This document shows positions 4,628 to 60,870 of a DNA stretch of 64,000 nucleotides, one piece after another. The stretch covers positions 19,975,501-20,039,500 of the forward strand of contig CM038912.1 in NCBI GenBank assembly GCA_021904315.1, in the 5' to 3' direction. This stretch comes from Sphagnum magellanicum (Eukaryota; Streptophyta; Sphagnopsida; Sphagnales; Sphagnaceae). The notes under the pieces are model-generated. The model worked only from the letters and a program-made list of their open reading frames with translations. It searched no databases and was not told the origin of the DNA. The stretch's first letter is position 1. Each line of letters starts with the position of its first letter. Made by a program: the position numbers and the translations under genes.

Positions 4628-4718
4628 ATCTCTTAGTCTTATTATTCTGTTCTCCTCCATATCGAAGTTGCCCTAGCTGCAAAAAAAATCATCAGGAGCT
4701 TGCAGAACACCACAACCG

Positions 4719-7700
4719 ATGGCTGCAGGTTGTGACATTTCAACGAGAAGTTTTTCTTCTTCTTCAGCTTCTCATCGGCCTCTAAGCAGATCCCTGATGA
4801 GATCTGCTTCATCTAAATCTACTTGGGTCCAGCAGGATCCAGACTCTTCTGCCCTTGGAGCAACTCCTGCAGCTTTCCCTTCAAGAGATGAAGACAAAAA
4901 AGATAAGCAATCCACAACCGTGCATGACAAAACCCATCTTCATCATCTTTATGGCGCCAAGGAAACTGATCAAGACTCACCCAGTTTTTTGCTTGGAAAA
5001 AATGCACAATGTGAGATATTGTTGGATGAAGAAGATTCAGCCAATTGGGATCCTTCACATGTCCCTACTTTGAAACTTTCTTCTGGAGACAAAGACAATG
5101 ATGGTGATGGTGCTTCAAAATTACCAGAGAGAAGTTGCCTTTATGATTTGGAGGATGCATTATCCGACATTACCTGTGACAACTCTTCTACTGCAGACAA
5201 AGATGAAGTATCCTCCTCATCATTTGGAATGCTCAGGAAACCATTCTTAAGGTCATGTAGTCTTGCCTCCCGGGAACAAAACTCATCACCTGGGAAATTT
5301 CTGGCAAGATCAGCATCAAATCTTTCAGCTAAGGACAACCAAGAAGCCATTCTTGTTGGAACTCAAGAAAACCGGACTTCATCATATCGATCATTTTTCA
5401 GCTTTGGCAAAAGTGATTCGAAACCCAGTCACAACAACTGGGAACAGCAGCAGCCCCTTTCTTCAGATCCCTCTGTCAATCCCAATTTGGGTCCAATTTC
5501 TGGCCTCTCAAATTGGGCTCGAAGATTCCGGAATTCTACCGCAAAGGTTCAGAGCAGTACTGATGCAGATCTGTTGGCTTCATCATCATCACCTAACAAG
5601 CTTAGAAAGGGTGGCTCACCTGCAAAAGCAGCAGCAGCAAAGGAATCTGATCTCAGCATTTCTTCAGTGTCACAAGATACAAGCTCCTTGAAGGTTTTTA
5701 CGAAGGGGTTTCTGGACTCCTCAAGAAATGCTGTCAAATCAGTGCAATCTAAAGCACGGAATCTTGTGTCACAAAACAAACACTGGTATCAGGTACTTGA
5801 CCTAAACCCAGGATTGCAGATGTCTGCAATGGTTGGCCCGAATTTTAGACACCCACTGTTGGAAGCATGATGATGATGAAGTCAATGGGGAAAATCATGG
5901 CTGCTCATCCACTGCTATTCATGAGGCAGAGGTGATGGTCCAACACTTTGTGGGTGACACTCATAAGGTTATGACCACACTCAATTATTGTCATCTTAGT
6001 TTTTATTTTACTGGAACTAATAGAACAGGTACCTTCAAAGATTTGTTTTGGAGATTTTCTCAACGATCTCATAAGATATTTACCCTTTTCAAATAAGCAA
6101 TCTGTGGATTTGCACATGACTAGTATGTTCATCTGTTGGAATGTTTGTTTAGTACCTTCACTGTTCTGCATTTTCTGTCCTGGGGTAAGGGTGAGATGCC
6201 TTAAGGGTATCATTGGCTATTGTGTAGATGATGTTTCTGAACAACTAGATTTATGGAAGCCCTTTTGAATTAATGGAATGAGTGGATGGGTTCTGTTTTG
6301 GTTCCCAGGATAATGGTTTGGAACTTGACATGGCGTACATTACAGAAAACATAGTTGCCATGGGTATTCCATCAGCTGATATGAATTCTGGTCTCTTCAG
6401 CTTTGTTGAGGTATGCAACTTGCTTTTCCCTTTTTATGCAATTTTTGGACAGAATAGCACCTTTTGTAAGTTTTCAACTAGCAGACTTCTGGATTTCCAA
6501 AGTTCAAACAGATTAAATTTGACCAATCGCTCAAGAAATCTGAGTTTGAAGATGTGTGCTTTCATAGACTTATTTCTCAAAATGTTCTTGGGTGCAAAGT
6601 GAATCCCTTGAGTTTTGTTAACTATGTTGTCAGGTCCTTAACATTTTGGATTCTTTGCAGGGATTTCATCATATGCACCATAACTACATGGAGGATGCCA
6701 TCAAGTATTTCGAAACTCAACATTCAGTATGTCTTTTTTGTCTTTTGATTCAATTTTGTTTTGTAATTCTTTAGACTCTTGTTCTGTATTGTGAGAAGTT
6801 GAGACCATAGTTACAGATTTCAGACAAAGACTCTTGAGGGAAATTTTTTGTCTGAATAATTCACTGCACTACCTGGAAACATTCTCTGTGGTGTCTGGTA
6901 ATAAAATTCTTAAGTCCATGCATATCTGTTTTCAGGGAAATTACAAGGTGTATAACCTTTGCTCTGAACAACTCCAAGATGCTTCAATACTTGAAGGAAA
7001 GGTGCACTTCACAGTTTCCTCTAAACCTTTTGAATTCTAGGTTTTTCCAGAATCCTAAACCCTAAACCCTGAATACAAAAACCTGGAAATCTGATATCTG
7101 CTGATGAGTAGCTTACTGACAGATTGTGAACCAGTAACAATTGGTATTTTTAAATAGGTAGTTCTTATTCAGGTCTTTATAAACTCTGTTTTGTGTGTTC
7201 AACTTGTGGCAGGGGGAATGGTTTCCAATGGACGAGAATAATTGTCCACCATTACAGTTGGTGACCACATTTTGTCAAAGTGCTTACAAGTACCTGAAGG
7301 CAGGTCTTGAGAATGTGGTGGTAGTGCATTGTAAAGGAGGCATGGCACATGCTGGCCTTATGATTTCATGTCTCCTCCTTTACCTCAAAGTATTTGCCAC
7401 TTCCCTTCAATTTTCTCAGATAGTTTTCAATCAATCTCTTCTGGGTTATGGCAATGACCTGTTGAAAATCCTTAGTTCTGCCAAGCAATTGAGGTCAATT
7501 GTATGGTGCGTGTGTGTTTTTTTGCAACTCTTGTTGGTCCCATTTCCTTCTTTTTATCAGGACCATGTTTGACAATCTCTGGTGTCTGCCTTTTGGTTTT
7601 GTGAAGTTTTTCCCAACTGCAGAGGAGTCTGTGAATCACTACAACCAGAAGCGGAGCGTGGATGGCAAAGGCCTGATTCTTCCAAGCCAGCTAGTAAGTA

Positions 7701-10700
7701 TTCCTTCATTATGGCTGGTCTTAAAGATGCATGATGGCACTTCTTTTGTATATTCATAAGAATGCACTTCTTCTTTTGTTCCATTCAAAACTGGGTGTAC
7801 ATTCAAAACATGCACTTCTTTTATACATTCTTCTTTTTTATGCTTCTTTTGCTGTTATAACCCTATATATGATGTATAACGTTTTTGAAAATGGCAGCGT
7901 TATGTGAAGTACTTTGAGTGTGTGTTGAGGGAATTTGATGGGCATACACCAACAGGCCGAAGGTAAAATTTCTCTGGCCACAAACAGGACCAGCTCAACT
8001 TTTAGATTCACAATCAGAGTGTCAAGGGTGCTTTGAATTTGGCAATACAAGACACAACTAGGACACGAAAAATCTTCTGTTATCTCATTTGTGTATGTAA
8101 AGATTTGCAGATGGGTGGTCTTCCTGACCCTCTTTATCAATTGACGACTTGGATTTTTTTTTCCCCTTTGATTTATGATGTTCTGATCTTAACCTGCTGA
8201 TGCTGAAATCCATTAAATGCAGGTGCCAATTGAGAAGCATCCAGTTGATCAATTGCCCATCTTGGATTCGTCCAGCTCTCAATATTTCAAACCATAATGG
8301 TAAAACTCATACCTGCTCCAATGTGAGGTTCTGTAGGGCTACCGAGTGAATATCATGTGTCAGTTGGTGATTTTATTTTTCTTTTCTTGTTGTAGAGCTG
8401 ACCAAGATGTGGCCTTGATTATCTCAGGTATTGTGTTTTCAAGTCGGGAACATCGTCAGACAAGAGCAATGCTGGTTTGTCTTTACTCAATTCCAGCTAC
8501 CCAATAATCCCTGAGTTGTCACTCTTAGTTTACAGATACATGCTGTCAGTTTATCTTTGGTTTTGTTTTGACAGTGCTTAGAACTCCTTCATCAATGGCC
8601 TGGGTAAGCAGGTTGTTAATATGATCTTGAAATTTACTACAGACTGAGGACCAATGGCTAAGCACCAGAACAGAGAGAGTTGTGGTTTTTGACCTGCTGG
8701 AGGAGCAATGCATCACAGAAATTGATGGCGACTTCAAAATTCATTTCACTGACCGACATGGCAACTTTTATTGGTAAGCATCTGCTTGTACCCATTGAGA
8801 GAATGTTCTTTATGAATGACAAGATTTCTCATGGTCAAAACATGAATGAAAGGAAAGCAGCAGATGTGAATGACCCTATAGCAGCAATTGGTGTGGTGCC
8901 AAAACATGACCTGCTGACATGAAGCATGGACTGATCCAGAAGAATCTGGTGTGTGTATACGATGAGATTGTAGCTTTAGTTTGTCATGGTCACATGCTTC
9001 AGAGTTCTGTGTTCAAAACATCTAAAGGTCAGTGACTAGCAATGCTCTGAACATTTTTGACATGGCATGAAATCATCCCCAGAATCATGTAGAAACAATA
9101 AGCAACTACTCCATTGATAAGATAATATGACCAATCTTTTGCTGGGATTGCAGTTGGTTGAATACGAATATGATGGAGTCACAATTGATCCTCAATGCTG
9201 AGGACCTAGATGGTTTTGACAAGGTATGGTACAAAGTGCCTCTTCATGGTGATTCACCATTAACAAATCCATGGATGCATTTGTCTAGTGCTTTCCATTC
9301 AATATTTTTCAAGTTTTGTTTGTAATTCATTATCTGGGAGCAGATGGACTTCTACTTGAAATCTTTAATGCAATTATTATAAAATATCTGGTGTAATTAT
9401 TATATACTTATTTACACACACCATCGGGATTTGATGATGTCAGTCTTATCAATGTTATCCACAATCAAGGTGATGGTCTGACACTTTGTGAACAACTCTG
9501 ATAACATTATGAGTTATGACCGCATTCATTGTTGTGTCATCATCAAAGTGTTGTTGAGATTTTCTCCGCAATCCCAAACAGATGAAAATTCTTTAATTTG
9601 AACTCAGGAGGTGGATGGGCTACTTCCGTGATTATTTTACACATGACCTTTTAAGTCTTATTTTCATTCAGGAAGAACCTCCCTGGTCTCTCTATGGACT
9701 TGGAACATAATGACTGCCAATTATGCTATGCCCATTCCACTCTTTTGTCTACAGGGCATGGCCAGTCAAACAGCTGATTCATACTGGGAGAAGGATGAAT
9801 CTGCACCTAAGGTGAAAATCATGGTGCAAAACATCTCATTCCTTACTGGTGCTCAATATGTGCAGAGACAGGTCCCTTCGGTTGGATTCCAAGTGCGAGT
9901 GGAGATCATGGATGACAATCTGCCCATTCCTGGTGATCTGGATGCAGATTCTGGTTATAAGTCTGGTGATAATAATAGGGTAGTGGCACCTGCAGTTAGG
10001 AGTCAAGCTTCAGGGAGCTCACCTTCAGGCAGCAATGCTGTAACAGTGGGAGGAGAACCTGATGATATATTTACAGGTTTGGTCACAAAGCTTGTCATCT
10101 ACGGTGTTGTATAATTGTTAACTGTCAAATCAGCACCTCTTTGTTTTTTACACTTTTACTTCCCTCCTCTCATATCTGCAGTGTGAGCATTTGTGTGCAT
10201 CACCATCTTGCTGGTTATTGAAAGATTGTCCTCTCTATTTTTCCAGACAGTGAAGGAGAGGAAGATGAAAGTCCACAACTGGATAATGGTGAAGCAGAGG
10301 TGAAAAGTAGGATGGATCTTGGTTTGGAAGTAGGAACTGCTTGTGTGGATACATCCAGGGCTCCTGATTTGATTGGAGGGAAAAATCAAGGGAAATTCCA
10401 AAATGTGATCACGAATGCCATGTCCGATATGGGCAATGGGATTTTGAATGCAGTGGATAGGATCCGCATTTCCCACTTGTCAGTCAGTGGGAGATTGACA
10501 AGCCTACCAAACAGCCCTCGGATGATACATGGTGACCGACAAGACTTTGGGTCTGCAAGGTCAACTGGTGACAATGTTGCCAACTGTGAATGGTTGTATG
10601 GGAGCTCAAGATCCCTGAGTGGAAGGTTTTTGGCTTCAAACAGTTTTGAGGAACAAACTGTCAAGACTGCAGGAAAACTGGAGCAGCTAGGGATAATAAA

Positions 10701-10932
10701 CTTGGACCAAACTGGGAAGGGGGGGGACATCAGTGACCATCTTTGTTCGCGTTTCAAAGAGACACCCAATTCTTCATTCCACAGTGAGGACAATGGAAGT
10801 GTAAACTATGTGGATCCACCTAGTGATTTTCAAGCATTGGCTGTAGCCAGTGCTGCTGATGCTTCTGTTTTCAGTTTTGTTGACGATGATGATTATGAGA
10901 GTGAGGATGAAGTCACAGTAGTTTCCACTTGA
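4719..10932 (+). CDS. PTEN2-like: PTEN2-like phosphatase, active site substituted
   Basis: Complete 13-exon gene encoding 952 residues. Exons: 4719-5792, 6309-6410, 6661-6726, 6936-7001, 7213-7389, 7607-7693, 7898-7962, 8223-8299, 8428-8474, 8643-8773, 9154-9223, 9866-10076, 10247-10932. All junctions are GT-AG and all phases join. PTEN removes the 3-phosphate from PIP3 and the domain order matches plant PTEN2: a disordered Ser-rich N-terminus with the conserved SNWA (about 263) and FTKG..D.S.NAVK (about 326) segments, the phosphatase domain (about 360-560), a C2 domain (about 560-690), and an acidic tail with DIFTDSEGEEDE and ADASVFSF. The N-terminus is about 200 residues longer than in Arabidopsis PTEN2. 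The P-loop reads HCKGGMAHAG instead of the usual plant HCKAGMARTG: Cys476 is kept, but the catalytic Arg is His482 and the following Thr is Ala. The acid loop has DENN where plants have DDHN. The frame is otherwise intact, so a catalytically dead but expressed protein is the simplest reading. The start is the first ATG of a 358-codon open exon, after stops. Confidence 0.93.
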
Positions 10933-13148: not shown

Positions 13149-16100
13149 TTACGCCTTGTTGTTTGGAGAAGTGATGATACCATTACTTGAAACATCTTTT
13201 CTGGAAACAGAGCCATTGCTCATGATGGGTTTTATGGTGGTGCAGGTTGTGTTGCCATTGCTCAAGGCATGAGTTTTGTTGAAGAAATTTCTTGAAGGTT
13301 GAGCCTCTTCTGCATCAAGAGGAAGATTCCTGTGGGTATAGGACACAGATTGGTCCCCATCCACCATTTGGCCATTACCCCTTAGCAACCTGTGGAGACA
13401 AATTTGGAGCCCACATCAAGATCAGGCAGTCCATTAATGATGAAGACAGAATCATGTAGAACCACCTTGTCTGTAACTGGAAAATAGGTGCAATCATGTA
13501 TCCGTCTTTTAATTGTTCAAGGTAGAAAGTGCAAAATTACAAACCATCTTGTGGTGAGAAGGCCCTCCACTCCTACAGGACCTCGAGCATGGATTCGACC
13601 AGTGCTTATTCCCACCTGTGCAGCAGCAGAAGTCTCAGGAATTTCTTCTAAAATATGTTCAACACAAGCTCCATATTATTGATTGCAACTGTAAGAACAT
13701 AGAAGTAGCATCTACCATCTACTCAAAGTTTGACCAAGCTTCCACCATTCACACATATCTATACTGATCCACAAGGCTTTGCTTAACAAATCCTGATAGC
13801 AGTTCCTGCATCCAGTACAGGAAGATGTAGGAAAAAAGTACCTCAGCACCAAGTCCGAACCGAGCTCCATCAGAGAAGCGTGTGCTTGCATTATGGAAGA
13901 CTGCAGCACTAGAATATGGAATAGGGCAGAGAGCACTAGTTAGAATGTCCCACTTGTGACTTTCATTCAACTCCACATTTCAATGTCAATAGTATTTTGT
14001 TGAAAAGATCCACATTGTGATGTAACATACCTGTCAACGTCACACAGAAACCTCTCAGCAGTTTTCATATCCTCAGTAACAATGCAGTCCGTATGCGCAC
14101 TACCCAGCACCCCACCCAGTCACTTGCAATTTTCAACAAGGTATACATAAAGGATTGCTTGCAGGAAGGGGCCTCTTAACTGTCTGCTTTCACCAAAACC
14201 GGCCATCATCTATGACCCTGCAATGACTTCCTTATTCTACCATAGGATGGTCAATCAACAGCTATGCACAGATGTTAACATCCCAACAGGAAGAAGCAGA
14301 GGAGTTTTGTGTAGAGGGAGTTAACACAATTCTATGAATCACCTGCCATGGTCATGGATGTGTTCAATGGCAGCATCGATGTCCTTGACAATTTCAACAG
14401 TACAGGCTAATGCACTGTACTCTGTATGAAAGCTGATGGCTTTTGGCAGTTTCAGTAACTGCGCTGCCCTCTCACCTCCATACAATGTTACACCTGCAAT
14501 ACCGACCAAAATGACACTCATTGCATTGGTTTTTGACTTGAGTTCATCAAACACCTGACTTGTTCCAGTCCCCAAACAAGAACCAGAGATAAATAAAGCC
14601 AGAAACTTTCTTAGGTGTATAGATGGTTAAGAATCTTACCTGCACACTCAAGAGCAAAAACAAGGCTTTCCAACCCACCAGTGGCAACTAGGTGTTCATG
14701 TACCAACAGTGTTTCCTGTAATGACACAGGAAGGGACCATGTTTAACAGAACAAATAATCATTTCCTACACTTATGACACAGACTTTGAAGCTGTGGTCC
14801 AACTTCTAAATAGGCCAAGGGCCTGGTATGAATCTGACAGTCATGATCATAATAAAGTTAGGCTTTCAATCTCGAATCTCCTACAGTCCTAAAACACTCA
14901 GTTATCTGCCCTCCAGTTCTTCTAGACATTGGTATTTGACAGTTGGCAAATTGAAAATGACTCCACCCTGTCATGTCTTGTCCTGCTGTATCTCAATGGA
15001 CAATTCACAATCTGGAACTTTCAAAGGCTTTGGTCTGATTCCCCTAGTCATGGTGAAGTTCCCTACCATTGCATTGCAAGCAGCTGGATAGTCTGTTTTG
15101 GAGTCAACCACAATGCGCTTGGCCATACCAATATCAGCAGCCTTGTCGACAAAAACATGGCAGACACCATCTACACCATATACACAAGGGAACATGTGGA
15201 TTGAAAAATATAGTCTAGAAAGGAACTGACAGAGGGAAAAAGGAAACTATATAAGGTCCTGTTGTAGTATAAATTTGTTTCTTTGCCTAAAACATTTCCC
15301 AAGAGGGCAGGCAAAAAAAGCTACAGAATGTCCTTTGAATTGTCTCTGTATTAACAGAGAAACAGAACACACACATGTAGAGTGATGCTATAATGAAAGC
15401 CACATCAAATGTTGCTTGTTAGAGCCAAATATCCCGTCACCTTAAGGCCTTTGACTTCCACTAATCAGGCAGACATTATTTCACTGCAACGGTGAGAAAA
15501 AGGAAAGAGAAACGAGATAATAGCACAAGCCCAGAAACTAAGGGGATTGGGGAAAACTTGACAAGAGATCCACAAGCACGGAAAGAAAGGGCTGACCTGC
15601 ATGGCCAAGGACAGGGATTTTAGTGGCTGCCTTGATATCAGAAACCAGCTTATTGCTTCCTCTGGGTATCACCAAATCTATTACATCGTCCAACTGGCCA
15701 CCAAGTCCAAGGAAGAAGTCTCAGAACCATATCTCAATCTAACAAGTTGTTTCTGGCCAAAGGTTCACGAAGGGGTGAAGTTGCACATGTCTGCCTATCA
15801 TATAACTTCTGCACAAACAAGGAGGGTGCAAGAACTTTCATATTTCCCAGTACCAATTGTTTACCTTAAGTAGGTCTGGGATCTCGTCCCTGGAAGTAAC
15901 AAGTCCAATGAGGGATGAGCCCACAGACTTTGGCAGGGCTTCAGTGATCACCTGAAGTCACCAAATCAAAGCCCAATGATTCAGCCTCTTAACCGGAAAG
16001 CTGTATCAAAACTACAAGCCTTGATATTAGACTTACTCTCTAGGCAACTGCTCATGAAGTTGTTTGTTGACTCTCTCAAGGTGCCCTCAACTTCTTTCGG

Positions 16101-19100
16101 TTGAGGACATGCACCTGCACTACTATATGCCTATACAAGATATTCAAACAGCTCAAGCAGACTGTGTCATTAGCTTGAGTTAAGTGTAGACCCAAGCTTA
16201 AATTGGAGATCAAATGGCATGTTGAAAATACCAAGAATCATTAAAGTCAGCTAAATTTGATGTGCTAATTATAGCTCAGAAAAAAAACACATATTTGATC
16301 TTAACAATAGGAAAGGTTTTCCTGGGATGGGACATCTTTGGGCACCTTTTAGACTGCAACAATGAGACATACTGTGCTTGGTTATTCACAATTGCAAATA
16401 GGGAAGGAGTTCAGATGGTACTTTGTGCAATATAGCATTTGATCGGGCAGCTTCTTTCCCCCCCTTCAGTAAGATGCCATTTCCACTCTGAATTGCCAAT
16501 GATGCTATCTGACCCCACAGAAAACAAATAAAACTTGACATGTGGTAACTTTGACAATTTGCAGAACAGAGGTGAATATATTTGTCGCTGTGTCAGCTGA
16601 GGATCATAGTTCTAGTGTAGAATTTATGTGGATGTTGCTACAGCCACCAGCTTTCTAACAGGGGATGCTTCAAAGTTCAGGATATTGAAAGAAATGACAG
16701 CAGACATTGCTATGAGAAATAGAGCAAAGCACATTCATGGCAGAGAATCCCTAAATTTTGAACAGTACCTGGACCAAAGCATCTGGCCGTGACTCAAAAA
16801 TAACCAAGACAACACCCAATGGACATGTTGTCTTCTCCAGAATCAGGTCTTCTGCAATCTGTGACACACATTACATCCAGGAAGTGACATGATTAGCATC
16901 TCATACCTAGAAACCGTGGATGGTGGAACTCTCTAGTTGTCTCTAACTGTATCCTCTCCACCTGTAAGTTCCACTTTGACCCTGTCCTTCCAAGCATCTC
17001 ACTCTACTTTTTCACATCTTTGCCTTGCTGTTTCCAGATTCATAAGCTCAGCACATAAATCTGACAATCCCTAGCATCACAATTGTGATCTAAATTGTGC
17101 ATTTCTCTTTCTAGATGAGGAAACTCAGTTGGCTTACTACTAGTCCTTGCTACCAGAAAATGAGTCAGAGACAAACCTCAGTATGTTTTGACACAGCTCC
17201 AATTGGATCCTTCATGTCTGCAAGGACTCTCAGAGATTTGGCTAAACTTGCAATCTGTACAGTGGAAAAATAAAATAAGAACCTCAAAGCAACTCAAGGA
17301 AAATTCAAATACATCAGTCAAAAGAAATTCTCAATCTGTCCAATCCAACCTGAGTTTTACATTTAGTGAAGGGATCATGCTACTGAATTATCTTCTGAGA
17401 TAAACAGCTGACTAAATCTATGGCAACTCGGTATGTGCCCAGTGAGACAATGGAATTAAGGGAGGCCTTCTAGACATAGGTGACCTATAACTGGTTATGA
17501 CATACTTTTCCGGGCTTGATTGTAAGGCGACCAATCAATGACTTGGCAATGCCACTCAGCTGAGCTGCTTCCACATCAGCATCATTTTCAATCTTAATTC
17601 GCGCCTCGTTAGCCACCAAAGCATCAGAAACTGTAAGCAATATTTTCTTCCGCTCCTCTGATGAAAGACTCTGCAATATCCAAGAAATCTAAAATCATGA
17701 CATAGCAGACAAAACTCAAACTTCATTTTATCTTGACTTTTTTCTGAAGTGGCACCTTGTGAGTTTCAAATTTTCCCTCTCCCAACATTAGCTCTAAAAT
17801 AAAACATGACAACAAGACAAGCTTTAAACACCACCAGTTAAGAGGTAGAAGGGCTGCAACAATAAGGATGCGTATTATGGAAATTGAAGAAACACCTGCA
17901 GTCGGCGGCTGGCATCCCTCGCAGAAACAGCCATATCCCTAGCACCTGTTTCCTTCACATCAACCCAAAGATAGGAGTCCTTGTGGAAGAGAGTACCAAT
18001 ATGATCCCCGCGCATAACATGCAGTAGGCCATCTGGAGCACATCCACTACCCTCCCAGATCCCACCAACTCTTTACTCAACTGATTTGAGGACTTGGTAA
18101 TGCAACCAATGTGCACAATCTCCTGATTGATATGATCCTGAAACCTAAGATATACTCATTCCATCATTCCTAGTTGAACCTGTCATGACAAAGAGAAAAT
18201 AGTCCATCCTTGAAAGGTAGAATTGGTCCATGAATCAAGATGTGCTAACCTCGTGATAACGACAGGGATTCCAGCAGATGCTGCATTCCAGGCTGCATAT
18301 ACTTTAGCTGTCATTCCACCTCGACCAACTCTTGACTTTTCCCCAAATGTGACCATATCATCATGCTTTTCTTTCAAGTAAGTGTGAATCAGTCGTGACT
18401 TGGGATCACATGGTGGGCCTGTGTACAGGCCTTCAACATCACTCAAAAGGATAAGTAGATCAGCTTTCAGTTCCAGTGCCAATAGTGCTGCCAAGCTATC
18501 ATTGTCCCAGAAGATACCTGTTCCATCCTGTTAGATGCACCAAGTACCAGTACTGCTCATCAGATTATGTGACAATGTTTGTAATACTCCTGATTCCACC
18601 TCTGTTGCTCTTAAACAGGACCACACCCTCCATTGTCTATATGGAAAAATCATGCTAAAGGAATTGAAAGGTGAAAGATTGATACAGAATGCAACGAACC
18701 AAATCTCATAGTTCCAGAAGGCTTGTAGCAGGTGAGTGCAGATACATCATGTCAATTGTAAACTGCAAAGATTCTTCATAGCCTTCCATCACCTGACTTA
18801 TAAACAGATTCTGAACACTTCTAACTGTACTCACATAAGAAAACATACTTTGCTGTGCACAATAAGACAAGGGTATACAAGACATTGATAAATTACTTAT
18901 GGAATTCATTTACCTTGTATGGTGCCTTCCTTGTACTGATTGCATCATTCTCATTGAAAACTGGAACCACTCGAAGTTCTAGCAAGGAGTTGACAGTTTC
19001 TGAGAGCTGAAGTCTGGATTCAGGATCTCTGAAATCATTATCTGTTACAAGAATCTGGGATGATGCCACATCCAGCTGCATAACATAGTCATACTAAGTC

Positions 19101-20911
19101 ATGTGAGTGAGATGATGTTGTTCACACCAGAAATTATGCAAGTAGGTGATGGTGGATATTAGTGTAGACAACTGAGAAGTAGGATACAAGTTCACTTTGC
19201 CCTTGTATCCATCGAACTCAAGAATGAACTAGTCAAGGAAGTAAAAGAAAGCACAAGAGAACAGAGAATTGCCTCTCTGAAAGATGACTTCCACCATTGC
19301 AACTGGTCTCATGTCTGAAACAGCCATAAATTGTATCTATTCCACAAGAGCATTAAACACAAGGAGGATGGCAGCTCATCTCCATAGATGAGCTGAGGTG
19401 CCATAACAGTGTATTAATACCTGGGTGAAGAGACTGTCATAGAGAGCCATGAGGCCACTTTGGCCTACTGCTGCACAAGGCTTTCCATCCAACTCGATTT
19501 GCGGTTTTTCAAGGTCCACAAAACTGTATCATCAGAACATCACATGGTAAGGTAAAAGGGTCATGACCTTTCTTACAGTGAAGGCAGCCACTGCACTGTT
19601 GGAACATCAGATTCTACTAGAGAGGCTGCTGAGAAAGGGTTGACAGTGAAAATTGAACCAAAACAAGAGCTAGAATGGATACACAGAAACTCACCTGCTA
19701 TTCAGAAGACGTTGGTGGCGCAGCTTTTGTAAGCCAATACCCACTGCCCCTGAAGTCACAAGTATGACCTCTATGCCTTCTGACATTAGCTCCTTAACCT
19801 GATGAGAGCAAATGATCATTAGCAGCATATTACGATTCTCCAAAGTCATCAGACCTGCTGTCTGCTACCTTACAGCAGTTCTCTAGCTCTATAATTGAAG
19901 GACCAGCTGATGATATGACATCTGTATGTGCAGATAATCCAACAGCCAGTTGGGTGGTCAAAATCAGTGGATCTCCAATGTAACAATTGCCCTATGATGT
20001 CTGTTCAATGTGGATCTGCATTCCAGGGCATCATCATTTCTGTCTCTCTCCCTCAAACCACATGTGAGAGAGCTCAACAAAAGAGAACCCATAATTGCTG
20101 AAACAACCAACTGTAGCATGTGACTGCTTGAAGGACTAACCTGTTCACATAAAGCTCCAATCCGGCCCAGTGCAAGCTTGCCATCATTTCTGGTTACAAC
20201 CGCAGTTCCAACCTGTTTTACTCAGAAACCAAGAGTCAGGCTTGTTACCAAGAAATTTCTATTTGTCTACTACAAGGGCAAGAATGCCATCCAATGGACA
20301 AACAAGTCCAAAAGCTCAGCTCTGTTTAAAACTCAGCATGTTAACCTGCCAATCTGTGCATCAATCAACATCATCAACAAAAGCAGAATTTCTCCTGCAA
20401 TCGTCTAAAGACAATAATCAGTGGTGGCAAAGTCATCAATGTCAGCACAGATTCCAGATTGGCCAAGTGATGACCCCTAAAATCTAAATGCTATCTTCTT
20501 CAGGGCACCAGTGCTGTAACGCTCTCTCAGTCTGATCGTATATCTCTCATCTCTTCAAGTACTGTACAATACAATGTGTCATACCAAATACACAGCAAGA
20601 TTATCGTTATCACTTCCTTGTGGAAAAGGAGAAGAATTTGGATCCTTAAACTATAGTCTCTGAATGGACAACAATTCTGAGTGTCCAGCGAATGAGATAC
20701 TGGCAGTGAGCGGATGATGCAAGCTACTATTGTTCACTACGATTATCGGCATCCTGGAGCTCAAGAAGATTAGCAACACCAATTCTATCTATACTTGCAT
20801 TGCGAGGCAGAACTCGACTGCGACGTACACAGACAATGCCATTGTTTGCAAGCAAGGTACCTTGACAACCACTCGCTTTGCATCCTTGATGAATGCCCGA
20901 GATGGATCCAT
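13149..20911 (-). CDS. P5CS: Delta-1-pyrroline-5-carboxylate synthase (P5CS)
   Basis: Complete 20-exon gene, 767 residues. It encodes the bifunctional enzyme that phosphorylates glutamate and reduces glutamyl-phosphate, the committed step of proline synthesis. Exons 5' to 3' (high to low): 20861-20911, 20141-20212, 19695-19798, 19421-19523, 18914-19075, 18250-18527, 17896-18046, 17506-17670, 17177-17254, 16769-16858, 16422-16508, 15865-15951, 15597-15693, 15067-15170, 14640-14715, 14343-14493, 14031-14099, 13842-13908, 13545-13615, 13149-13389. Phases all agree. The glutamate-5-kinase domain (about 1-290) shows [24 protein letters not shown] (150-157), [10 protein letters not shown] and GRGGMTAKV. 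Phe125 sits at the Phe linked to proline feedback inhibition in Vigna P5CS. The GPR domain (about 305-714) shows [27 protein letters not shown] and DYPAACNAM with the reductase cysteine near 540. A 53-residue tail follows the usual C-terminus. The start is MDPSRAF, which matches plant P5CS starts. A CAG four bases before GAGAAAATG suggests a possible 5' UTR intron acceptor. Confidence 0.97.
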
Positions 20912-27120: not shown

Positions 27121-27407
27121 TTAAAAGATAATTTGTGAGTTTCAAAAAATCAAAGAATTAGTTTTCATATATAGCCACAGTCCTCAAAACTCTTTAACAA
27201 ATTTAATACATTATAATTGCAACCAGTCAAATGACCTTATATAAGATTATCAATTCTTTGCATGTTAAAAGATAATTTGTGAGTTTCAAAAAATCAAAGA
27301 ATCAGTTTTCATATATAACCACAGTCCTCAAAACTCTTTAACAAATTTGATACATTATAATTGCAACCAGTCAAATAACCTTATATAAGATTATCAATTC
27401 TTTGCAT
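27121..27407. repeat. 144-bp tandem duplication
   Basis: Two adjacent units starting at 27121 and 27265 (both TTAAAAGATAATTTGTGAG) differ at only a few positions across about 144 bp. The low divergence means a young duplication. The unit is AT-rich and non-coding. Confidence 0.9.
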
Positions 27408-52149: not shown

Positions 52150-53310
52150 CAAAAAATTAGGAGTTCAAACCTAAAAGGAAAGTAATACCCTCATGAGGGT
52201 ATTTTGTAGACACCATCGATTGAGTTATTTTGGTCTAAGCTATTGGAAAGGTAATGCTTATGCTTCGTATGATTCAATGCACATATAATACCTTTATTAG
52301 GGTATATTAAAAATCCTTTGGGCTCCATAACATATTAAAAAATCCTAAAGGGGTATTGCATAGCGCTAACAAAACCTAGAAGGAACATAATATGTACCCT
52401 TATGAGGATATTTTGTAAACAGTATGGATTAAATTATTTTGGTTTAGGCTATTAGAGGGGTATTGTTTATGCTTAAAAATATTGAATGCATGAACAATAC
52501 CTTTCTTAAGGTATATAAAAAATATTTTGGGCTCCATAACATATTTAAAAAATCCTAAAGGGGTATTGCATAGCGCTAACAAAACCTAGAAAGAACATAA
52601 TATGTACCCTTATGAGGATATTTTGTAAACAATATGGATTAAATTATTTTGGTTTAGGCTATTAGAGGGGTATTGTTTATGCTTAAAAATATTGAATGCA
52701 TGAACAATACCTCTCTTAAGGTATATAAAAAATATTTTGGGCTCCATCACATATCTATTGAAACCTAGAAAAATATTGCAAAGGTAAAACCTACAAGGAA
52801 AACAATACCTTCTTTGGGGTAATTTACAAACACCATGGGCACAATTATTTTAGTTTGGGCTATCAAAAGGGTATTTGTTCATGCCCAAAACTACTCAATT
52901 CACATGCACTACACTTCTTTGGGTACCCCATAAAACCTTTGGGCTCCATAACACAATTTTGGAATTTGAAAAGGTATTACATAGCCTTAATAAAACCTAG
53001 AAAGATAACAATACCCACATCATTTTGTAATAATATCATAAACCATGAAACAAAAGAATTTTTTTAAGATACTTATTTTATGCCCATTATATCATACCAG
53101 ACATATTAATTCAAATAAATGAGGGTATTGCAAAGTTCTTCACATTGATGGTAAAATGTCACTTGAACAAAGTTATGGAGTTTAAATGCAATACCTACAT
53201 CATCTTGGGATATTTGCAATCACTATGAAACTTGGAAGGGTATTACATAGCCTTACCAAAACTTAAAGGAACACAATACATGCATCATATTATGACAATA
53301 TCTTAAACCA
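52150..53310 (+). repeat. Tandem array of about 209-bp units (left arm)
   Basis: The landmark GCTCCAT(A/C)A appears at 52322, 52531, 52741 and 52943, giving periods of 209, 210 and 202 bp. Each unit contains a GGGGTATTG...CAATACC pairing, AAACCTA(G/C)A(A/G)GG, an inverted ATACCCTNATNAGGGTAT core, and GATTAAATTATTTTGGTTTAGGCTAT. The middle two copies are nearly identical and the outer ones more diverged, as expected from unequal exchange. The same unit occurs in the opposite orientation at 59.33-60.87 kb. Confidence 0.88.
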
Positions 53311-59332: not shown

Positions 59333-60870
59333 TGTTTCGTGGTGAATGCAAATATCCCATGATGATGTAGGTATTACATTTAAACTCCATAATTTTGTTC
59401 AAGTGACCTTCTACCATTAATGTGAAGAACTTTGCAATACTTTCATTTACTTGAATCAACTTGTAGGGCATGCTATATTGAACATGGAATAAATATTTTT
59501 AAAAATATCCTTTTGTTTCATGGTTTAAGATATTATCACAATATGATGTAAATATTGCTTTCCTTTTAGGTTTTGGTATGCATAGTTATGACATTCTTCA
59601 TTTTGCACATTAAAATTCTTTAAAATTCTTCATTTAGCACCTTGTCATAACATTCTTTACCCGCGAATGTTTACCAAATTACACTGGTTGATCTATAATT
59701 TTTTTAAAAATTCTTTAAAATTCTTGCTTCTTTGGGCTTCCATAACATTCTCGCACCAAGAATGTCATAACTATGTTGGTATGGTTATGCAATACCCTTG
59801 CAAGTTTCAAAAACTATGTTATAGAGCCTAAATGATTTTTGGGATACCTTAAAAGGGGGTAATGCATGTGCATTGAACATTCCTATGAATGAGCAATACC
59901 CCTTTGATAATCTAAACCAAAATAATTTGGCCCATGTTGGTAAGGCTATGTAATACTCTTTTAAATTTGAAAAGATATGTTATGGAACTCAATGTATTTC
60001 TAAGATAACTTATAAAGGGTATTGCAGGTGTATTATGTAGTTTTGAGCATGAGCAATACCCCTTCAATAGTGTAAAACGATGGTGTTTAATTATTGAATA
60101 CCCTAATGAGGGTATTAGTTTCCTTGTAATTTTTAGTATGATTATGCAATACCCTTGTGAGTTTTAAAAGATATGTTATGGAACCCAATGTATTTATGGG
60201 ATACCCTACAAGGGGGTAATGCATGTGCATTGAGTATTCCTTGCCATAAACAATACCCCTTTAATAGTTTAAATTAAAATAATTTAGCCCATGGTGTTAC
60301 TACATACCCCAAGCATGGTATTGTTTTGCTTGTAGGTTTTGGTAGGGCTATGTAATACCCTTCCACATTTCAAGTTATGGAGCCCAATCACAAGTTTCAA
60401 AAGATATGTTATAGAGCCCAATGTATTTCTAGGATACCCTACGAAAGGTATTGCAAGTGTATTGAGTAAGTTTGGGCATGAACAATACCCTTCTAAAAGC
60501 AACGTAGACCTTTGGTGTTGAATTACAAAATACCTTAATGAAGGTATTGGTTTCTTTGTAGATTTTGGTAGGGTTACGCAATACCCCTCCATGTGTTAGA
60601 AGATATGTTATGGAACCCAATGTATTTTTGGGATACCCTGAAAGGGGTATTGCATGTTCATTGAGTCTTTTTGGGCATGAACAATACCCTTTTAATAGCC
60701 TAAACCAAAATAATTCAGCCCATGGTGTTTGCAATGTAGCCCAATGAGAGCATTGCATTCTTTATAAGATTTGGTAAGGTTAAGTAATGCCTTTTCAATT
60801 GTCGAATTGTCGAAAGATATGATATGAAACCCAAACTATTTTAAGGATGTCTAGAATGGGGCATTGCACG
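59333..60870 (-). repeat. Tandem array of about 200-bp units (right arm, inverted)
   Basis: The landmark ATATGTTAT(G/A)GA(A/G)CCCAATGTATTT recurs near 59815, 59970, 60170, 60404, 60604 and, degraded, 60815. Reverse-complemented, the units match those at 52.15-53.31 kb. The clearest pairing is 59333-59457 against 53109-53233, about 125 bp with only scattered differences. Copy 2 of the MITE interrupts one unit here. Confidence 0.85.
59581..59775. mobile_element. hAT-type MITE, copy 2 (195 bp)
   Basis: Perfect 18-bp terminal inverted repeats CATAGTTATGACATTCTT and AAGAATGTCATAACTATG, with a perfect 8-bp target duplication TTGGTATG (59573-59580 and 59776-59783). It sits inside one unit of the right-hand array. 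The uninterrupted target (TTTTGGTA..G.TATG followed by AATACCC) is present in neighbouring units, for example near 60348 and 60566, and inverted near 53245-53262. It is about 10 bp longer than copy 1 because of an extra TTTAAAATTC-like internal repeat. Confidence 0.96.

Follow-up and report, generated by a model that had tools for sequence, protein, structure and literature searches.

A plant-type PTEN2 gene of Sphagnum magellanicum with an altered catalytic site, a probable pseudophosphatase

One PTEN2 gene of Sphagnum magellanicum retains the nucleophilic cysteine of the PTEN signature but lacks the arginine that follows it in the P-loop, which raises the question of whether its product is still an enzyme, a protein kept for another task, or the trace of a recently disabled gene. 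The gene lies in a stretch of 64,000 nucleotides, hereafter the window (C6:19975501-20039500), where it occupies positions 4719..10932 of the + strand. Its 13 exons make up a coding sequence of 2970 bp (989 codons and one terminal stop); all 12 introns have GT-AG borders, and the reading frame is intact, free of premature stops and with every splice site kept. In exon 1 the frame between stops opens at 4677, and the ATG at 4719 is its first methionine. A first-pass annotation of the DNA had described an intact gene with all 13 exons in frame, placed exon 5 at 7213..7389 and read its P-loop as HCKGGMAHAG, with C476, a histidine at 482 and then an alanine; these readings are exact, the three residues being encoded by TGT (7330-7332), CAT (7348-7350) and GCT (7351-7353). 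Residues such as R130 or D92 are given below in human PTEN numbering. The features of the gene are as follows.

4719..5792, + strand: exon 1, with the start ATG and a long N-terminal extension (residues 1-358)
5697..5780, + strand: residues 327-354, FTKGFLDSSRNAVKSVQSKARNLVSQNK, a well-conserved segment upstream of the domain
5781..5786, + strand: H355-W356, replacing the basic pair R14-R15 (alignment to human PTEN; NKRRYQ in all three paralogues)
6309..6410, + strand: exon 2, where the phosphatase domain begins
6661..6726, + strand: exon 3, longer than that of the paralogues by an in-frame 9 bp (three residues; extra bases 6667-6675)
6676..6681, + strand: H398-H399, replacing Y46-R47
6936..7001, + strand: exon 4, with Q at the R74 and Y76 positions (position 74 is R, R and K in the paralogues)
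7213..7389, + strand: exon 5, carrying the WPD loop and the P-loop
7234..7239, + strand: E444-N445, replacing D92-H93 of the WPD loop (GAG AAT vs GAT CAC in all three paralogues)
7327..7356, + strand: P-loop HCKGGMAHAG, nucleophile Cys retained, Arg and Thr gone
7607..7693, + strand: exon 6
7898..7962, + strand: exon 7, where the phosphatase domain ends
8223..8299, + strand: exon 8, PTEN2_C2 domain
8428..8474, + strand: exon 9, PTEN2_C2 domain
8643..8773, + strand: exon 10, PTEN2_C2 domain
9154..9223, + strand: exon 11, where the PTEN2_C2 domain ends
9755..10076, + strand: exon 12, C-terminal region (GT-AG borders and frame; homology to the paralogues only partial)
10247..10932, + strand: exon 13, long tail, terminal acidic motif (SAADASVFSFVDDDDYESEDE; a similar motif in all three paralogues) and stop

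The assignment of the protein to the plant PTEN2 class is supported by its PTEN2_C2 domain (Pfam PF22918; 171.9 bits, E 7.2e-51, cut-off 25), by its exon structure, and by a C-terminal DASVF acidic motif and the FTKGFLDSSRNAVK segment, both of which it has in common with its paralogues. Two Pfam phosphatase models score below their own cut-offs, and human PTEN chains match at an E-value of 4.3e-36, so that the likeness to PTEN is not due to chance. Pfam matches up to E 0.01 included no FH2 domain in the 989 residues. When the protein was compared with the whole window by tblastn, only its own exons were found at E < 0.01. Elsewhere in the window, pieces of a multi-exon gene lie on the - strand at 13970-20221, with a glutamate-kinase-like part (AA_kinase, E 3.7e-17) and later pieces; by its motifs we take this gene to resemble a delta-1-pyrroline-5-carboxylate synthetase. 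Tandem repeats occupy 27121-27407 (unit of 144 bp), 52186-52754 (210 bp) and 59966-60788 (432 bp).

By searching the moss's own genome (438,994,042 bases in 31 contigs) with the PTEN2_C2 profile, we obtained 12 exon matches at four loci, namely the window and one locus each on C13, C14 and C18. A phosphatase-domain search gave 21 matches and added two loci, on C16 and C17, which from their resemblance we take to be of PTEN1 type; they read FDDN and AGKGRTG, the latter in a separate, unspliced exon. In an exon scan that permitted equal length or a 9-bp difference only, exons 2-11 had the same length and phase in the three PTEN2 paralogues, apart from exon 3, whose in-frame 9 bp are the only length difference from the window gene. 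These nine extra bases (6667-6675, His-His-Met) are in none of the three paralogues and adjoin the lost R47. Exon 1 encodes 358 residues in the window gene vs 166, 202 and 171 in the paralogues, the start of each paralogue being taken as the first in-frame Met. Between exons 4 and 5 of the paralogues on C14 and C13 (L010 and L011), matches to a PTEN query extend into the intron and contain stops; they are probably alignment extensions, or alternatively a decayed exon copy. Pattern searches for relatives found no match in viral contigs, and none of the 17 matches in the genome contigs collection was a relative.

The three other PTEN2 loci all keep HCKAGMARTG, which the first-pass annotation had given as the plant PTEN2 P-loop, together with FPFDDHN, FYRNHM and NKRRYQ. 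Compared with these paralogues and, by alignment, with human PTEN, the window copy carries R130H, T131A, D92E, H93N, R47H, Y46H, Y76Q and H/W in place of R14/R15, and compared with human PTEN also R74Q; the changes at D92, H93 and R47 (now E444, N445 and H399) extend what had been noticed before. It thus lacks two features of an active PTEN phosphatase, the arginine of HCxxGxxR with the threonine next to it and the aspartate of the WPD loop (Glu 444), and keeps Cys124, Lys125, Gly127, Gly132 and Gln171. An excerpt of PMC8956741 gives the PTEN active site as residues 92, 93, 124-126, 129, 130 and 171; at these eight positions the window copy is identical to the human protein in three and each paralogue in seven. 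Outside them, the window copy is identical to human PTEN at 57 of 164 positions of the phosphatase domain, so that conservation is no higher in its active site than across the remainder of the domain.

The individual changes do not carry the same weight. Both PTEN1-type genes also have asparagine at position 93, and a chain of a voltage-sensor phosphatase has glycine at 126, so that neither H93N alone nor the change at 126 need inactivate the protein. The informative ones are R130H, T131A, D92E and R47H. Changes at deeply conserved sites were not significantly clustered in the active site (4/7 vs 18/72, p = 0.09); a p value of 0.03 was reached only with residue 131 added post hoc, and the loops taken overall gave 8/23 vs 14/56 (p = 0.27), so we rejected a significant cluster.

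Because the P-loop arginine, which holds the phosphate, and the WPD aspartate are both replaced, phosphoinositide turnover by this protein is not expected, and it very probably has no phosphatase activity. Excerpts of two papers describe R130 as required for PTEN catalysis and D92 for protonation (PMC8180946), and R130 as a hotspot of colorectal cancer mutations (PMC8956741); both statements about R130 speak against a phosphatase that remains active with altered chemistry (His for Arg, Glu for Asp) or on another substrate, as does the additional loss of T131 and R47. The retention of Cys124, Lys125 and Gln171 leaves room for weak or altered activity, Gly127 and Gly132 are likewise kept, and the exchange of Asp for Glu is conservative, but we consider a still active enzyme very unlikely. 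Even less credible is that the P-loop codons were misread or misassembled, since the window's CAT is two bases away from the CGC that encodes the arginine in all three paralogues, and many conserved codons are changed across several exons with no stop or lost splice site. The same comparison bears on the idea, raised in the first-pass annotation, of a very young loss-of-function allele born by CpG deamination of CGT to CAT: with CGC in the paralogues and many other conserved codons changed, we rejected an origin by a single transition, though deamination may have been one of two steps. Nor is a very young allele as such supported, R130, T131 and D92 having all changed relative to the three canonical paralogues.

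Whether the gene has remained under selection was addressed with a branch codon model fitted to 293 aligned codons of exons 2-11 from the window gene and its three same-genome paralogues (three window codons were removed as gap). For the window branch the model estimated an omega of 0.117, and for the other branches 0.087. A common value for both was not rejected (LRT 0.8); omega = 1 on the window branch was rejected (LRT 141.0), with a likelihood interval of about 0.08-0.17 (2dlnL < 3.84). This dN/dS, far from 1, together with the intact frame, agrees with the earlier preference for a pseudophosphatase over a broken pseudogene. The window branch, with a dS of about 1.6, is near saturation and, in an unrooted tree, includes the stem of the paralogues; as the comparison covers same-genome paralogues only, its omega is a mean over the periods preceding and following the loss. 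With human PTEN as outgroup, 23, 26 and 22 changes fell on the window side vs one each on the paralogue side, showing that the window gene evolves clearly faster than its sisters. This asymmetry also implies that its own omega is probably above 0.117; it would be about 0.22-0.23, by an arithmetic estimate, if half of the branch dS were its own.

Such averaging leaves a place for a recent pseudogene, in which catalysis was lost shortly ago, the frame has had no time to decay and the low dN/dS dates from before the loss. The faster evolution of the window side fits this reading, and dN/dS alone does not reject a neutral end to the branch: when one was modelled, about 5-6% of the branch was allowed to be neutral (2dlnL 2.81 at 5% and 4.70 at 7%), although the best fit among the ten fractions tried was zero. 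When the window coding sequence was substituted at random, with only stops scored, 51 substitutions left it without a stop with a chance of 0.145, but a tail that short rarely changes three of the eight active-site codons (0.003 at 51 substitutions and 0.011 at 98), and a longer one leaves stops (a mean of 5.3 at 142 substitutions, with none in 0.005). In a simulation of neutral decay that left out indels, three of the eight active-site codons changed without a stop in only 1 of 1000 runs. The window gene itself has neither a stop nor a lost splice site, and its sole length change in exons 2-11 is in frame. Gene-wide CpG decay was rejected as a sign of silencing because the four PTEN2 genes are depleted of CpG to a similar degree (observed/expected 0.32 in the window gene; 0.31, 0.29 and 0.31 in the paralogues). 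We therefore judge a recent pseudogene, like a short neutral spell since the catalytic loss, to be unlikely, and a maintained pseudophosphatase the more likely of the two; that a non-catalytic function has been maintained is, on these tests, likely.

The nature of that function is less clear-cut. The first-pass annotation had proposed lipid binding or scaffolding, and the former is weakened by the charge of the protein. Counted as K+R minus D+E, the core carries a net charge of -13 in the window copy vs +1, -1 and +1 in the paralogues, and the C2 part one of -6 vs +3, +2 and +3; 13 of the 34 basic residues common to the paralogues are lost, with 4 gained elsewhere. Also gone are R47 and the R14-R15 pair, which in human PTEN belongs to the PIP2-binding motif at the N terminus, and these losses together weaken a role in lipid binding. 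Nor is omega lower in C2 than in the phosphatase part (point estimates of 0.143 vs 0.104). On the other side, the C2 domain is still recognizable by its Pfam score, the PTEN domains of formins that lack the same arginine associate with membranes (PMC6982070, in excerpt), and an excerpt of PMC3870300 names PTEN2A among the targets of phosphatidic acid. A pseudophosphatase working by lipid binding thus seems doubtful to us, if less so than a recent pseudogene.

The loss of basic charge, the conserved segment at residues 327-354, the C-terminal acidic motif and the long N-terminal extension rather favour a role in protein interactions. In that segment, which was chosen after the alignment had been seen, 25 of 28 residues are identical to each of the three paralogues, and the core shows 196-200 identities over 293 positions (p ~0.02). 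Its conservation is not unique, since 2 of the 266 core windows of 28 residues are equally kept (residues 490-518, just past the P-loop), and this lowered our estimate for a role through protein partners rather than lipids to slightly under an even chance.

The loss of this arginine in plant class II formins has been published and is thus a known theme. According to an excerpt of PMC2386819, a crucial arginine of the PTEN catalytic site is missing from prasinophyte formins just as it is from those of plant class II, which makes enzymatic activity improbable. For moss For2A, an interaction of the PTEN-like domain with PI(3,5)P2 is reported, on which its localization depends (PMC6982070, in excerpt). 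The window protein resembles these domains in its plant PTEN ancestry and its missing P-loop arginine, and differs from them in that it has no FH2 and a C2 of PTEN2 type; unlike the membrane-associated formin domains, its core has lost basic charge. Set against these cases, the window gene differs in the absence of FH2, the PTEN2-type C2, the three canonical sisters that share its genome and the lost basic charge. The PTEN-related domains of metazoan tensin and auxilin are not known to be catalytic and serve in contacts. They are likewise PTEN folds within other proteins (PMC2386819, in excerpt), but from another lineage, and an auxilin chain matches the window protein only at E 5.4e-11.

Among closer relatives, PTEN2a and PTEN2b of Arabidopsis, listed as phosphoinositide phosphatases in an excerpt of PMC6719168, share with the window copy the PTEN2_C2 domain, the phosphatase ahead of C2 and an N-terminal extension, whereas the window copy lacks the catalytic Arg and the WPD Asp, its core is more acidic and its tails are longer. 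Human PTEN R130 mutants have the same residue changed in a retained protein, but they are tumour mutations, while the window change stands in a genome assembly on a branch of low dN/dS. Non-catalytic scaffolding and a homodimer of PTEN are mentioned in an excerpt of PMC8956741. Among the matches listed in the literature searches, no title concerned a stand-alone plant PTEN pseudophosphatase, and five variants of the P-loop letters gave no match there.

Taken together, the window gene is probably a PTEN2 paralogue turned pseudophosphatase, which would fold as phosphatase plus C2 and act through protein contacts. Loss of the P-loop Arg and the WPD Asp would have ended its phosphoinositide turnover, and the protein, with its long tails and lacking the basic charge that a membrane-binding protein should have, might then serve as a scaffold, or pair or compete with the active paralogues. 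Plants are not known to possess class I PI3K signalling. A bolder proposal, slightly more doubtful than the lipid-binding one, sees in this gene a dedicated PTEN2 subunit without enzymatic function that arose in peat mosses. Catalytically dead, acidic and long-tailed, it would pair with the three active PTEN2 proteins or titrate the partners of these, and might thereby act as a built-in dominant negative tuning phosphoinositide signalling. A copy with a conserved-looking fold but lost catalytic residues would separate, in nature, the enzymatic from the non-enzymatic job of PTEN2, and the three canonical paralogues of the same genome, as controls, would make the latter directly testable.
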